This document shows, piece by piece, positions 17,528-53,831 of a stretch of DNA of 64,000 nucleotides. The translations under genes were made by a program, and so were the position numbers. How positions within the stretch are numbered: position 1 is the first letter of the stretch; each line of letters starts with the position of its first letter. The DNA is from Kangiella marina (lineage in GTDB: Bacteria > Pseudomonadota > Gammaproteobacteria > Enterobacterales > Kangiellaceae). The notes under the pieces are model-generated. The model worked only from the letters and a program-made list of their open reading frames with translations. It did no database searches and was not told where the DNA came from. The stretch lies in NCBI RefSeq assembly GCF_039541235.1, contig NZ_BAABFV010000002.1, positions 248,001 through 312,000 of the forward strand, given 5' to 3'.

Positions 17528-18946
17528 ATGAGTAATTTACACGCTCAAGTCGTAGTTTTAGGTAGTGGCCCTGGCGGCTACAACGCAGCATTCCGTGCCG
17601 CTGATTTAGGCATGGATGTGATCTTGATTGAAAAATACGCCACATTAGGCGGTGTTTGCTTGAACGTAGGGTGTATCCCATCAAAAGCGTTGCTGCACAC
17701 AGCAAAAGTCATTGATGAAGCAGAAGAAGTATCTGCTCATGGTGTTAACTTTGGTAAGCCAAAACTAGACATCGATAAAATCCGTGATTACAAAGATGGC
17801 GTCATCAAGCAATTGACGGGCGGTTTGGCTGGTATGGCAAAAGGTCGTAAAGTAAAAACGGTTCAAGGTTACGGTAAATTTACTGGTGCTAATGAAATTG
17901 AAGTTGAGCACGATGGTAAAAAACAAAAAGTAACGTTTGATAACGCTATTATCGCAGCAGGTTCGCGTGTTGTTGATCTACCGTTTCTACCAGAGGACGA
18001 CCGTATTGTAGACTCTACGGGTGCTCTTGAGCTTCGCGATATTCCAAAGCATATGTTGGTGATCGGTGGCGGTATCATCGGTCTTGAAATGGCCACTGTT
18101 TACCGTGCACTAGGCGCAAAGATTACTGTAGTTGAGATGGCTGATCAGCTAATCCCAGCGGCAGACAAAGACGTGGTTAAGGTGCTAGAGAAGTTCATCA
18201 AAGGTAAGTACGAAAATATCTTGATGGAAACCAGCGTAACTAAAGTTGAAGCTAAGAAAGACGGTTTATACGTTACTTTCGAAGGCAAGAACGCACCAGA
18301 AAAACCGCAAAAATTTGACATGATTCTTTCAGCAGTCGGTCGTCGTCCAAACGGTGACTTGATTGATGCTGATAAAGCGGGTGTTGAAGTAACTGAGCGC
18401 GGCTTTATCAATACGGATAAACAAATGCGCACAAACGTGCCTCACATCTATGCAATCGGCGATATCGTTGGCCAGCCAATGCTAGCACATAAAGCAACAG
18501 CTGAGTCACACGTTGCAGCTGAAGTTATTGCTGGCAAGAAGCATTACTTCGACCCATTAACGATTCCATCTGTAGCCTATACAGACCCAGAAGTTTCTTG
18601 GGTTGGTTTAACGGAAAAAGAAGCCAAAGAACAAGGTATTGATTACGGCGTGGGCAAATTCCCATGGGCTGCATCAGGCCGCGCGATTGGCGTAGACCGT
18701 AAAGAAGGCTTCACTAAGTTGTTGTTTGATAAGAAAAACAACCGCGTCATCGGTGGTGCTATCGTTGGTGTTAATGCAGGTGAGTTGATTGCAGAAGTTG
18801 GTTTAGCGATTGAAATGGGCTGTGATGCTGAAGATATCGGCTTAACCATTCACGCGCACCCAACTTTATCTGAGTCAGTGAGCTTTGCGGCAGAGGTGTA
18901 CGAAGGTGTTTGTACTGATTTACCTCCTCAGCGCAAAAAGAAATAA
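17528..18946 (+). CDS. lpdA: Dihydrolipoamide dehydrogenase (E3)
   Basis: FAD enzyme that reoxidises the dihydrolipoyl groups of the pyruvate and 2-oxoglutarate dehydrogenase complexes and makes NADH. The N-terminal FAD-binding motif GSGPGGYNAAFRA is followed by the redox disulphide GGVCLNVGCIPSK near residues 41-53; the NAD-binding GGGIIGLEMA starts near 181; the active-site His-Glu pair is in HAHPTLSES. Length, 472, is normal. The Shine-Dalgarno is GAGGAA. The gene lies 120 bases after aceF and is followed by a long hairpin and then a standard terminator. Confidence 0.98.
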   Translation: MSNLHAQVVVLGSGPGGYNAAFRAADLGMDVILIEKYATLGGVCLNVGCIPSKALLHTAKVIDEAEEVSAHGVNFGKPKLDIDKIRDYKDGVIKQLTGGLAGMAKGRKVKTVQGYGKFTGANEIEVEHDGKKQKVTFDNAIIAAGSRVVDLPFLPEDDRIVDSTGALELRDIPKHMLVIGGGIIGLEMATVYRALGAKITVVEMADQLIPAADKDVVKVLEKFIKGKYENILMETSVTKVEAKKDGLYVTFEGKNAPEKPQKFDMILSAVGRRPNGDLIDADKAGVEVTERGFINTDKQMRTNVPHIYAIGDIVGQPMLAHKATAESHVAAEVIAGKKHYFDPLTIPSVAYTDPEVSWVGLTEKEAKEQGIDYGVGKFPWAASGRAIGVDRKEGFTKLLFDKKNNRVIGGAIVGVNAGELIAEVGLAIEMGCDAEDIGLTIHAHPTLSESVSFAAEVYEGVCTDLPPQRKKK

Positions 18947-19067
18947 GAAATTATCTTTTTGCTCCTGAGCCTTGTTATAAAGCTTTTCAGCGGCAGTCGT
19001 TTACTAACAGTAAACTCCTTTCTCGAAAAGCTTTATGCCGCGCTCAGAAACAAAAATCTTAATTTCT
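18946..19067 (+). repeat. Long 3'-end hairpin element, copy 1 (after lpdA)
   Basis: Imperfect dyad starting at the lpdA stop. Outer arms AGAAATTA (18946) and TAATTTCT (19060-19067), inner arms ATAAAGCTTTTC (18977-18988) and GAAAAGCTTTAT (19025-19036), perfectly complementary. The core holds GTTTAC-TAACA-GTAAAC (18999-19015) followed by TCCTTTCTC. It shares this core with four other copies at 50.4, 51.9, 53.7 and 53.8 kb. A normal terminator lies further downstream, so termination is not its only possible role. Confidence 0.75.
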
Positions 19068-19097
19068 AGTTTGGTTTAAAACCAAAGTAAAGTTTTG

Positions 19098-49940: not shown

Positions 49941-50432
49941 ATGAGTCGAGATAACCGTTTAGCGAGATTAGTAAAGAAAATCGAAGGCTACCCTTCATTT
50001 TTGAGAAAGCCATTGCTGAATATGGCGCTGCGTAAAACGGTGAAGCTGGTTGGAACCGCAAAGGTTGAAGTTTTGCAGCTGACTAAAGAACACTCCCAGT
50101 TTAGATTACAAAATCGTAAGAAAGTCCAAAACCATATTGGTACCATTCATGCGGCAGGCATGGCGCTTATCGCTGAAACAGCAACCGGAATGGTTGTAGG
50201 TATGAATGTTCCTGATGATAAAGTCCCGGTGATCAAAACTCTCAAAGTTAACTTTCTAAAGCGAGCCAAAGGTGACTTAGTGGCCAAGGCTCACCTGAGT
50301 GACGAACAAATACAGGATATCCTGACTTTAGAAAAGGGTGAGGTTGAAGTTGCTGTTTCGGTGACCGATGAAGAGGGGAAGGAGCCGATAGAGTGTCAAA
50401 TGGTGTGGGCCTGGACTCCGAAGCGCCACTAA
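49941..50432 (+). CDS. DUF4442 hotdog-fold protein, putative thioesterase
   Basis: Member of the DUF4442 group, which has the hotdog fold of acyl-CoA thioesterases; activity is unproven. In this 163-residue protein the segment NHIGTIHAAGMALIAETATGM near residue 70 resembles the hotdog active-site helix, and KVNFLKRAKGDLVAKAHLS is the typical following strand pair. It is divergent from the DUF885 gene (165 bases) and its stop is followed at once by a long hairpin of the repeated family. Confidence 0.82.
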   Translation: MSRDNRLARLVKKIEGYPSFLRKPLLNMALRKTVKLVGTAKVEVLQLTKEHSQFRLQNRKKVQNHIGTIHAAGMALIAETATGMVVGMNVPDDKVPVIKTLKVNFLKRAKGDLVAKAHLSDEQIQDILTLEKGEVEVAVSVTDEEGKEPIECQMVWAWTPKRH

Positions 50433-50820
50433 AATCCATACTCGTCGCTTAGGCGGTGTTAAATCAAAAATTCTTTCTAGTCATTTACTAAAGTAAACTC
50501 CTTTTAAGAATTTTTGATTTGCCTAGCCTAAGTCTAGCCTATGAATTTTAAGTACAGTTTACATTCATATCGCAAAAACTAGATTGAGCTGTAACCCCAA
50601 TAACTGTCAACCAGAAGGCTGCTCGCTTGCGTTGGCTCAGTATCTCAGCTTAGGACTTATCCTTAGAATCTACTATTTTCACCTTATCTCTAACATTTCT
50701 TGCGATTTTGGCTATAAGGCTAGGTTTATGGCTATGCAGCTGTCCTTCTATTGGTTAAAATATGCTCCTTTTGCATAGAAATAGCGTGGAAATGCCACGG
50801 AATAGTGCTTTTGGGGATGT
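50433..50820. other. 388-base gap before prfB
   Basis: The first ~100 bases hold hairpin copy 2 of the repeated family. The rest shows no convincing gene; a 64-codon frame at 50584 has a poor start and no recognisable sequence. Two short hairpins, TATGC/GCATA (50761-50777) and CGTGG/CCACG (50785-50799), lie just before the prfB ribosome-binding site. Confidence 0.5.
50448..50532 (+). repeat. Long 3'-end hairpin element, copy 2 (after the DUF4442 gene)
   Basis: CTTAGGC (50448-50454) pairs with GCCTAAG (50526-50532), and AAATCAAAAATTCTT (50461-50475) pairs perfectly with 50506-50520. The enclosed core has TTTAC-TAAA-GTAAA followed by CTCCTTTT. It starts 16 bases after the stop codon, in the same orientation as the gene. 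Confidence 0.8.
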
Positions 50821-51919
50821 ATGTTAGAAGTTAATCCATTAAGAGAACAATTAAAAGGTATGTCTGAGCGTGTTGAGACGCTTAGGGGGTATCTTTGACT
50901 TTGATACCAAGCAAGAACGTTTAGAAGAAGTCACCAAAGAATTAGAGCAACCTGATGTGTGGAATGATCAGGAGCGAGCCCAAGCGCTGGGTCAAGAGCG
51001 TGCAAAATTAGAAGGCGTGGTTAATACCATTCTAGAATTGGAGCAGGGCGTTACCGATCACTCGGATTTGCTCGAAATAGCGGTAGAAGAAAACGATGCC
51101 GACAGTGCCGAGATGATCGAGACTGAAGTCCAAGGCTTAGAAAAAATGTTAGCCAAACTTGAGTTTAGACGCATGTTCTCCGGCGAGATGGATGAAAATA
51201 ACGCTTACTTGGATATCCAAGCAGGTTCGGGCGGAACCGAGGCTCAAGATTGGGCCAGTATGTTGCTTCGTATGTACTTACGCTGGGCAGAAAGCCGAGG
51301 CTTTAAAGTTGAAGTGACGGAAGAATCAGATGGCGATGTCGCGGGCATTAAAAGCGCGACTATCAAAGTTGATGGCGAGTATGCTTACGGTTGGTTAAGA
51401 ACCGAAACAGGCGTTCATCGTTTAGTGCGTAAATCGCCTTTCGACTCTGGCAACCGACGTCATACCTCGTTCGCATCAGTGTTTGTTTATCCAGAAGTTG
51501 ATGATGATATTGATATCGAGGTTAATCCAGCAGATTTGCGAGTTGATACCTATCGAGCGAGCGGAGCTGGTGGTCAGCACGTCAATAAAACTGACTCGGC
51601 GATACGACTGACGCATATTCCAACAGGAATTGTGGTGCAGTGTCAGAATGATCGCTCTCAGCATAAAAACCGTGCTGAAGCGATGAAGATGATGAAAGCC
51701 AAGCTCTATGAGCTCGAAATGCAAAAGCAGCGAGAAGAGCAGCAAGCATTAGAAGACTCCAAGTCAGATATTGGCTGGGGCAGCCAAATTCGATCGTATG
51801 TCCTGGATCAGTCTCGGATCAAAGATTTAAGAACCGGTCATGAGTCGAGCAGTACTCAGGCGGTGTTGGATGGGGATTTGGATAGTTTTATCGAGGCATC
51901 CTTAAAGGCTGGCGTATAA
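50821..51919 (+). CDS. prfB: Peptide chain release factor 2, with programmed +1 frameshift
   Basis: Recognises UGA and UAA stop codons and releases the peptide. The first 25 codons from ATG 50821 end in an in-frame TGA at 50896-50898, and the rest of the protein is in the +1 frame (GAC at 50897). The frameshift site is the classical one: an internal Shine-Dalgarno AGGGGG, spacer TAT, then CTT-TGA-C, so low RF2 favours the shift and autoregulates synthesis. The full product is 365 residues with the SPF tripeptide (RKSPFDSGN) that reads the stop codon and the GGQ motif ([13 protein letters not shown]). It precedes lysS, as in many Gammaproteobacteria. It is not a pseudogene. Confidence 0.98.
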
Positions 51920-51926
51920 CCTACTG

Positions 51927-52024
51927 CGCTTGCAAATACTGCGTTATATTGTAGCTGCAAATGCTCACTTACCTGCATGGTAAGCTCCGCTTTTCGCTTA
52001 CAATATGCCTTGTCTTTGCTTCGC
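51927..52024 (+). repeat. Long 3'-end hairpin element, copy 3 (after prfB)
   Basis: GCAAA (51932) and ATATTGTA (51946-51953) on the left pair with TACAATAT (51999-52006) and TTTGC (52015-52019) on the right, with internal loops. The core has CTTACC-TGCAT-GGTAAG (51968-51984) followed by CTCCGCTTTT. It starts within about ten bases of the prfB stop. Copy 3 varies in the core stem (CTTAC/GTAAG in place of TTTAC/GTAAA), keeping the pairing. Confidence 0.7.
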
Positions 52025-52146
52025 TCGTGACGGTTATATTGAGTCAATGAATTAATGTATTCACAGAAAAATGATGTGTTATTTCGTACCGTAGGTCGGT
52101 ACTTGTTTTAATAAAGAAAGTAATTAACTTGAGGTGAAGAGAAAAA

Positions 52147-53646
52147 ATGAGCAATCAAGAAACCCCAGTCGTCGACGTCAACGAACAAATTACCTTGCGT
52201 AAAGAGAAGTTGGCTGAGAAACGAAAACAGGGGATTGCCTTTCCGAACGACTTCCGTCGTGATTCCCTAGCTGCAGATATCGCTGAAGAATTTGGCGATA
52301 AAGAAAAGCCTGAGCTTGAGGAAATCGGTAAGAAGGTGAAGGTTGCTGGTCGCATCATGTTATTCCGTAACATGGGTAAAGCGAGCTTTATCACCATTCA
52401 AGATATGTCTGGCCGTATTCAGTCTTACGTGCGCAAAGATCAAGTTGGCGATGAAGTTTATGATGACTTCAAAACTTGGGATATCGGCGACATCGTTGGT
52501 ATCGAAGGTACGGTCTTTAAAACCAATAAAGGTGAGCTTTCAGTTAAAGCGTCTGATATTAAGTTGCTGACCAAGTCACTCCGCCCGCTACCTGACAAGT
52601 GGGGCGGTTTATCGGATCAAGAAACCCGTTACCGTCAACGTTATGTAGATTTAATCGTGAATGAAGACTCGCGCGCGACATTTATTGCTCGCTCAAAAGT
52701 GGTTAAAGCGATTCGTGATTTCTTAGAAGCTCGTGAGTTTTTGGAAGTTGAAACACCAATGATGCACGTGATTCCTGGCGGTGCTACAGCAAAGCCATTT
52801 GAAACGCATCACAATGCTTTGGACATGCCACTATTCCTACGAGTTGCGCCTGAATTGTACTTGAAGCGTTTAGTCGTTGGTGGCCTAGAAAAAGTTTTCG
52901 AGATTAACCGTAATTTCCGTAACGAAGGATTATCGACGCGCCACAATCCTGAGTTCACGATGCTTGAGTTCTACTGGGGTTATGCGGATTACAATGATCT
53001 GATGGATTTAACCGAAGAAATGTTACGTTACACCGTTGAGTCAGTATTAGGTAAAACCGTGTTTGACAGCAGTGGTGCGACTTACGATTTCGGTAAGCCA
53101 TTTGAGCGTATGACGGTACTTGAAGCAATTGTTAAGTATTTACCTGAAGTCTCTATCGAACAGCTGAATGATTTAGAATCGGCTAAAAAGATTGCTAAAG
53201 CTAGCAACGTGAAGATTGAAGACTCTTGGGGCTTAGGCAAAATTCAAATTGAAATCTTCGAAGAAGTGGCTGAACATAAGCTGATTCAACCAACGTTTAT
53301 TACGGCTTACCCAGCGGAAGTCTCGCCTCTAGCACGCCGTAACGATGACAATCCTTTTGTGACGGATCGCTTTGAATTCTTTGCAGGTGGCCGTGAGTTG
53401 GCGAATGGCTTCTCGGAGTTGAATGATGCCGAAGATCAAGCCGAGCGTTTTAAAGCGCAAGTTGAAGCCAAAGACGCAGGCGATGATGAAGCGATGCACT
53501 ATGACGCAGATTATATTCGTGCGCTAGAGTATGGCTTACCGCCAACAGCGGGTGAGGGCATTGGTATCGATCGTTTGGTGATGCTGTTGACTGACAGCCC
53601 TTCGATTCGTGACGTACTGTTATTCCCGCATATGCGTCCCGAATAA
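52147..53646 (+). CDS. lysS: Lysyl-tRNA synthetase, class II
   Basis: Charges tRNA-Lys. The 499-residue class II enzyme has an N-terminal anticodon-binding OB fold (residues ~60-160, [21 protein letters not shown]), motif 1 near 200 ([25 protein letters not shown]), motif 2 near 260 ([11 protein letters not shown] with the [10 protein letters not shown] continuation) and motif 3 near 480 ([12 protein letters not shown]). The Shine-Dalgarno lies in GAGGTGAAGAG. The gene is followed by two tandem hairpin elements and a terminator. Confidence 0.98.
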
Positions 53647-53653
53647 ACTGGTC

Positions 53654-53754
53654 TTTTTCACTTCTAACTTTGTTGCAGGACGTTTCTGCGGGATTCATTA
53701 ACTATTTGTTAACTCTATTCCTCGAAACGTCCGCGCCTCGTTAGAAGCGAAAAA
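53654..53754 (+). repeat. Long 3'-end hairpin element, copy 4 (after lysS)
   Basis: TTTTTC (53654-53659), CTTCTAAC (53661-53668) and GGACGTTTC (53678-53686) pair with GAAACGTCC (53724-53732), GTTAGAAG (53740-53747) and GAAAAA (53749-53754). The core is TTAAC-TATTT-GTTAA followed by CTCTATTCCTC. It starts 8 bases after the lysS stop. Confidence 0.75.
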
Positions 53755-53761
53755 TTCTGCG

Positions 53762-53831
53762 TTTAAGGTACATAAAACCTTCGCATATGATCAATTTACA
53801 AGAGTAAATTCCGCGATGCAAATTCCTTAAA
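53762..53831 (+). repeat. Degenerate hairpin element, copy 5 (tandem with copy 4)
   Basis: TTTAAGG (53762-53768) pairs with CCTTAAA (53825-53831), and GCAT with ATGC inside it. The core is TTTAC-AAGA-GTAAA (53795-53808) followed by TTCCGC. The outer arm runs into the lysS terminator at 53829. Confidence 0.55.

Follow-up and report, generated by a model that had tools for sequence, protein, structure and literature searches.

A widespread stop-codon palindrome of Kangiella, probably of the ERIC type, with fixed loops and freely changing complementary arms

In a 64,000-nucleotide window of the Kangiella marina genome (assembly GCF_039541235.1, contig NZ_BAABFV010000002.1, positions 248,001 to 312,000, forward strand), the genes lpdA, a DUF4442 gene, prfB and lysS are each followed by a long palindromic hairpin of one family, which is filed here as a putative divergent and wider branch of the ERIC kind of miniature inverted-repeat transposable element (MITE). 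The copies share a core, a self-complementary YTWAC/GTWAR mini-stem followed by TCY, and a search of both strands of the window for this pattern gives exactly five sites, all on the + strand. The original prediction, made from the letters of the window, had described five copies that point in the direction of their genes. All five sites and their orientation stand, but only four are full elements and the fifth is a decayed relic. It had also recognized no named element; no curated Rfam family indeed reaches its gathering threshold anywhere in the window, but the core is that of ERIC, as discussed below.

The ends of the four full copies were set by eye, and their scores are those of the covariance model R1 introduced below; all copies lie on the + strand. 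Copy 1, after lpdA (18944..19068, 125 bp; 88.3 bits at 18962-19056), runs from the TAA stop through nested arms with asymmetric loops to a closing 3' arm, TAATTTC-TA, and its core (19000..19018) reads TTTAC-loop-GTAAACTCC. Copy 2 begins at the TAA of the DUF4442 gene (50430..50550, 121 bp; 56.1 bits at 50446-50540; core at 50484..50501). Copy 3 extends from the TAA of prfB and lies ahead of lysS (51917..52036, 120 bp; 77.7 bits at 51931-52026); its core (51968..51988) carries TCACTTAC/GTAAGCTCC, and homologues are seen by eye in congeners. Copy 4, from the TAA of lysS (53644..53765, 122 bp; 84.2 bits at 53660-53754), has a TTAAC/GTTAA core with CTCT (53698..53716) and arms of a type called B, which are the same at the lysS end of one congener (G002). 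Immediately behind it, copy 5 (53766..53831, core at 53795..53812) is the decayed 3' part of a second element, of type A: by eye it is like the 3' part of the type A element that four congeners (G007, G006, G004 and G010) carry intact, and it is absent among the nine R1 matches listed down to 10 bits. Compared with shuffled sequences, folding is strong for copies 1, 2 and 4 (z -6.1, -7.4 and -6.8), moderate for copy 3 (z -2.5) and weak for copy 5 (z -1.8).

When the copies are laid side by side, the conserved architecture extends beyond the core. The loop beside the mini-stem is TCA/CTCC, and the commonest form of the core is TCATTTAC/GTAAACTCC. A second conserved asymmetric loop lies outside the core, in which C-TTTGTT (5') faces GCCTC-G or GCCGC-G (3'), while some copies show by eye a third loop further out, TCTTTTT/AAAAATCT, together with an outer arm. 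Between the two constant loops, the arms measure 18-21 nt (5') and 18-20 nt (3') in eleven copies, with unrelated sequences. The outermost arm starts at the stop codon itself: in 27 of 118 elements, at least 8 of the 9 bases from the stop onward are complementary to the downstream side (shuffles, 1.9%), against 2 of 118 for a control 9-mer taken 6 nt earlier (1.4% shuffled). This arm is clear in about a quarter of the copies. The TTTGTT/GCCTC loop, the TCTTTTT/AAAAATCT loop and the arm from the stop codon had all escaped the original prediction. Two further loci (L115 and L137) have the same core with different outer loops (CAGATTT.../...AAATCTTA) and possibly represent a third subfamily.

The family is abundant in the genome. 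R1 was built from five copies with equal 3' arms (88% of cells paired, double changes at 23 of 30 pairs) and retrieved at least 34 copies from the whole genome at E<1e-4, scoring from 91.5 down to 33.5 bits, with the next match at 19 bits. The covariance-model search that had been proposed with the original prediction thus found many further copies, placed by gene end and strand. All 34 copies were recovered from 32 of the 34 loci, since the copies of the other two loci lie within these. A second model, R2, trained on this genome only, made at least 42 matches in the genome at E<=0.01. Copy numbers for this genome, the genus, the class and the Bacteroidota are lower bounds throughout, as part of the first-look candidates was scored. 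Among the 34 copies, the arms are unrelated in sequence and nevertheless complementary within each copy, as originally described: 86.4% of cells are paired, double changes occur at 30 of 30 pairs, and none of 500 shuffles reaches these values. The covariation score is 0.788, compared with 0.190 for shuffled copies and at most 0.12 with slid partners. A copy after a class I fumarase gene (L002, around 1459-1578), not in the R1 genome list, has about 20 extra nt within its 5' arm.

Placement, too, is far from random. In this genome, 31 of the 34 copies follow an open reading frame (ORF) on the same strand (p=7.7e-7), and 29 of these 31 begin, by the model, 5-28 nt past the stop codon (the others at -2 and 71), in keeping with the short stop distances first noted in the window. 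No more than 28 nt separate 30 of the 31 from the stop; uniform placement in the same gaps would give 7.0, and none of 200,000 simulations reaches 30. Three copies (L029, L038 and L051) run antisense to the gene nearest upstream, which is of the thiolase family in one case and yebC and radA in the others. For 112 further copies of the genus (99 of 108 genus loci taken in), the neighbor is on the same strand in 94, on the opposite strand in 8 and lacking within 160 nt in 10. In other genera, a same-strand stop was found for 35 of 70 copies, 14 of these with a stop-to-core distance of 56-57 nt, whereas the opposite-strand stops of 25 of the 70 show spread distances without a peak. Orientation towards the gene therefore matters beyond this genus. 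Adjacency to the stop as a mere consequence of insertion at TA was considered and rejected, since the opposite orientation should then peak equally and does not.

The genes upstream of the copies, as named by NCBIfam, include efp, lpdA, lysS, grpE, prfB, iscA, ftsK, dnaK, rlmD, purL, groEL, rplI, ndk, queE, yebC, ybaB, guaA, fur, gcvH, lgt, djlA, fabH, trmB, pheS and frr, along with genes for a peroxiredoxin, an acyl-CoA dehydrogenase, a GAPDH-family protein and, at L002, the class I fumarase. This naming covers 33 of the 34 neighbor proteins (L038 was left out) plus the fumarase; some names fall below the curated cut-off, the ORF being cut by the locus end or only related, and the DUF4442 protein and an 86-aa protein have no NCBIfam match. 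All five downstream neighbors that were looked up are classical partners; copies sit between efp and epmA, prfB and lysS, guaA and tadA, gcvH and gcvP, and lgt and thyA. Such gene pairs are often co-transcribed. A role of the element at the 3' end of mRNA is likely. As a separate observation, prfB contains CTTAGGGGGTATCTTTGAC at 50881-50899, with a TGA at 50896-50898; this in-frame stop splits the gene, hence the listed ORF start at 50870, and the motif is presumably the classical programmed +1 frameshift site.

Comparison of orthologous gene ends shows that the copies turn over. Among the 20 genomes of the genus (K. marina included), the lysS end carries an element in nine, decayed in G011 (34.8 bits), and none in eleven. 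Types A and B, which both occur at this end, differ in every arm, and in three genomes (G019, G017 and G018) only a 3' scar is seen by eye, as expected from deletion between TAAAAA repeats. The prfB end shows, again by eye, similar turnover with tandem remnants, and several further gene ends bear elements in two or more genomes of the genus, with the arms either the same or changed. In two congeners (L244 and L245), a different palindrome (TCATTGCGAGC...GCAATGACGA) follows the ORF on the prfB side and occupies the gap that holds the ERIC-like element in others.

The manner in which the arms stay complementary was examined in 38 disjoint pairs of orthologous copies with an identity of 0.6 to <1, of which some low-identity pairs may reflect replacement and not descent. 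Of 123 paired positions that changed on both sides, 105 pair in both copies, double changes that show no route through a wobble pair; shifting the partners by 1-3 positions leaves only 4-9 of 24-56 paired. Selection for RNA pairing should leave many more G.U wobbles than A.C mismatches. Across 146 distinct elements, the G.U:A.C counts are 30:26 in the main arm, 2:10 in the mini-stem, 7:57 in the outer helix (helix 1; taken to include a conserved mismatch) and 100:47 in the inner helix (helix 3), which pool to 139:140 with helices 1 and 3 departing from 1:1 in opposite directions. An alignment-free count gives 19:23, and in other lineages the main arm stands at 18:34 and the inner helix at 20:21. 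Terminator-like stems of the same genomes, in contrast, yield 26:7 (10 bp) and 40:13 (9 bp) over even shuffled backgrounds (Fisher, 30:26 vs 40:13, p=0.027; 19:23 vs 26:7, p=0.004). Likewise, single transitions between orthologues produced 18 G.U and 30 A.C, while the double changes (53 transversion-type, 51 transition-type) have the same mix as the single ones (47 and 48). In closer orthologues, 11 double changes are adjacent, against 4.8 by chance (1/2000). The equality of G.U and A.C, the single-mutation spectrum in the double changes and their clustering argue for copying between arms at the DNA level by template switching, not for selection on RNA pairing. The view with which the analysis began, that complementary arms imply selection on structure, is therefore not supported as it stands at the RNA level. 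Template switching between palindrome arms should leave marks of this kind, and Monttinen and Loytynoja describe patterns in RNA genes that are consistent with such switching (PMC8794818).

Beyond K. marina, R2 detects the family in every one of the 20 genomes of the genus (its own included), with at least 13-55 copies in each and at least 665 matches in total, and at least one copy is present in at least 154 of 369 genomes of the class Gammaproteobacteria, again counting its own. A search with the exact 22-base core pattern met at least 119 stretches, of which 80 were listed; among the matches listed are Pseudomonas, Stutzerimonas, Halomonas, Salinicola, Chromohalobacter, Methylophaga, Marinospirillum, Vibrio, Nitrosomonadales, Mariprofundales and several Bacteroidota, mostly metagenome-assembled genomes (MAGs). 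On these 80 loci, R2 makes 83 matches at E<=0.01. A third model, R3, was built from 79 copies of other genomes, for which 79 of 109 loci were taken in (those dropped include some that lay at contig edges or scored low). It finds at least 9-61 copies in each of eight genomes from loci labelled Bacteroidota. Chance or a stray contig is an unlikely source of the Bacteroidota copies, while mixing within MAGs is possible. Elsewhere, copies can be nearly identical. Gammaproteobacteria bacterium MFB021 (G396, the genome of locus L148) has ten near-identical copies of one subfamily, 140-141 bp long, with TA on the 5' side in ten of ten and on the 3' side in nine of ten. A second subfamily in this genome (GAGGGTGTTTACAAA...; L333, L345, L370, L371 and L373) has, by eye, flanks of TGA...TGA in three copies and TTA...TTA in one.

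For the comparison with ERIC, also known as IRU or RU-1, we used its 63-nt core, with TCACTTAC-loop-GTAAGCTCC at the center. It is present at 80% cover or more in 5372 of 5426 complete Escherichia coli genomes. At the one E. coli locus tested (yeiL-psuT, in three strains), R2 ranks the ERIC site first, at 22.3 bits, over its full length and with both loops aligned. R3 also places it first in one strain, again at full length and with both loops aligned (22.7 bits, E 1.5e-5 in 3 kb, or about 0.02 scaled to the whole genome), although 28 of its 79 rows come from class genomes at large and may include enterobacterial ones. The two kinds of element share a single long imperfect hairpin (about 127 bp in ERIC, 120-125 bp in the window and 140-141 bp in G396) and the core, which copy 3 carries as such; the ERIC outer loop CTGCGTT/GCCTT can be likened to TTTGTT/GCCTC of the family. 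TA termini, described for ERIC with target duplication (PMC2229807), recur here at both ends in nine of ten copies of one G396 subfamily. Location at 3' ends of genes with an effect of orientation is also common to both; Yersinia ERIC is described as acting on the upstream mRNA, depending on its orientation, through an RNase E site (PMC2229807, PMC10969869). On the other hand, the arms of the family are unrelated between copies of one genome and about equal in length on the 5' and 3' sides, whereas the ERIC arms are shorter and uneven. Outside some other genomes, its copies are not alike enough for amplification with common primers, unlike those of ERIC. Strict placement at stop codons in this genus sets it apart as well, and its hosts (Pseudomonas, Halomonas, Bacteroidota and others) range wider than the Enterobacteriaceae and Vibrionaceae given for ERIC (PMC10969869). 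A survey of the literature at the level of titles and abstracts, plus some passages, found no description of the family outside these two groups.

Other known elements resemble the family in part. Integron attC sites are recognized by their folded shape, have variable arms and lie just after stop codons; they carry AAC/GTT boxes at their ends and a variable center, whereas the center of the family is fixed. Correia/NEMIS elements of Neisseria have a different sequence and conserved arms. They too are MITEs (107-155 bp) with TA ends and a transcript hairpin proposed to affect the neighboring mRNA, and they differ in being processed by RNase III (PMC2229807). REP sequences and REPINs, with their RAYT transposases, are likewise short intergenic palindromes, but REPs measure 20-40 bp and are tagged GTAG or CGTC (PMC3733652), compared with 120-141 bp and several loops here. 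A REP/RAYT system was rejected as the source of the family: the hairpin beside the one Y1_Tnp match of the K. marina genome is, by eye, a different one, and R2 has no match at its locus (L252). This RAYT-like gene (G000:C1 around 583515) has a hairpin repeat of its own, TAGGATGGGTTAGC...GTAACCCATC, apparently a separate REP-like family.

We consider it probable that the element is an ERIC-type palindrome at the TA of stop codons, whose loops are fixed and whose arms are kept complementary mainly by template switching at the DNA level. The 'small mobile repeat' offered among the original alternatives would then have been right. A MITE-like palindrome without a protein of its own would enter at a TA, mostly that of a TAA or TAG stop codon, in the orientation of the gene, and its first base (G or A) would restore the stop. 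It would persist as roughly the first 120 bp of the 3' untranslated region and fold into a single long hairpin with helices broken by the fixed asymmetric loops, which, being conserved, are presumably what is recognized. When the palindrome is replicated, template switching would carry a mutation from one arm over to the other, as the mutation pattern suggests, and copies would be lost through slippage between short repeats. A terminating ribosome would open a hairpin that starts at the stop codon, and this would fit the Yersinia model, summarised in PMC2229807, in which the ribosome controls the access of RNase E. A 3'-end role in housekeeping mRNAs may thus resemble that of Yersinia ERIC.

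Several observations weigh against this reading. The likeness to ERIC amounts to about 22 bits only, at a single locus, with arms that are shorter and uneven in ERIC, so that common descent as opposed to convergence is unproven; conservation of the loops is partly ascertainment, since the models that found the copies required them. TA after the 3' repeat is only weakly enriched, both in the copies of this genome and genus (8/37, p=0.014) and in other lineages (2/6, p=0.033), and, TA being self-complementary, its presence at both ends is alone no proof of target duplication. Simple TA targeting also leaves the stop placement and strict orientation unexplained. No recurrent partner gene or transposase emerged when the ORFs of 109 loci (L084-L192) were clustered: the four largest clusters span 8, 5, 4 and 3 loci and are common families, with single representatives identified as an ABC ATPase, a GGDEF/Cache protein, a response regulator and an M23 peptidase. 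As to the mutation pattern, the terminator control is less clear for shorter stems (at 8 bp, 52:34, p=0.066), double changes do not cluster in more distant orthologues (15 vs 14.1), and the inner helix has its G.U excess within the genus, which may reflect two alternative registers beside the core. Finally, with eleven of 20 genomes lacking a copy at lysS, no single copy is essential.

Part of this evidence would suit a vertically inherited structured RNA, that is, an mRNA 3'-end element with helices under selection for RNA pairing and loops that bind a protein controlling decay or processing. Copies that keep strictly to one orientation and to stop codons, many of them of housekeeping genes (efp, lysS, prfB, frr, pheS, groEL, dnaK, grpE and lpdA), would follow from it, as would the recurrence of elements at several gene ends in two or more genomes of the genus, double changes that stay paired at orthologous loci, conserved loops and the excess of 100:47 in the inner helix. 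Yet the main arm does not favor G.U over A.C where terminator stems do, neither the single transitions nor the balance of transversion- and transition-type double changes shows RNA pairing, and the patchiness at lysS and the near-identical multi-copy sets of other genomes sit badly with vertical inheritance, so we regard this explanation as unlikely. Ordinary intrinsic terminators or chance hairpins after genes are barely credible: long hairpins do lie past stop codons, a T run occurs near the 3' end in 10 of the 34 copies, and terminator-like hairpins follow copies 1 and 5 (by eye), but 24 of the 34 lack a T run, copies lie inside gene pairs that are often co-transcribed, and the genome search, which found the conserved asymmetric core 34 times, already refutes them.

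Folded single-stranded DNA might instead be the functional form, the loops serving as the recognition site of a structure-specific mobility enzyme, as with attC, IS200/IS605 and REP hairpins. Free arms with fixed loops, mismatch symmetry at the DNA level and identical-score copies in some genomes speak for it, and the A.C lean on the gene strand elsewhere (18:34 in the main arm) is expected if the bottom strand folds. However, a cognate enzyme was not found, the Y1_Tnp match lying beside a different hairpin at a locus without an R2 match, and the TA ends resemble ordinary cut-and-paste ends; this form of mobility thus seems decidedly improbable. A broader extension of the ERIC-type reading is held tentatively, as conceivable but doubtful: ERIC would be the enterobacterial tip of a cross-phylum superfamily of palindromes, in which the loops are the heritable identity and the arms turn over fully, recopied by template switching. 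In some genera these palindromes would have become standing 3' ends of housekeeping genes, and the A.C lean would mean that the folded bottom DNA strand is recognized.

ERIC repeats have been used for typing for decades. A family on the same plan across the class, reaching into the Bacteroidota, offers hundreds of natural variants for asking what the loops do. The family also cautions that compensatory changes in bacterial hairpins, though usually taken to prove an RNA function, can have a DNA-level origin, and the count of G.U against A.C provides a simple test for other candidate structured RNAs. Since the element in Kangiella lies at stop codons of genes for translation, chaperones and central metabolism, a 3'-end role, which is likely, can be tested directly.

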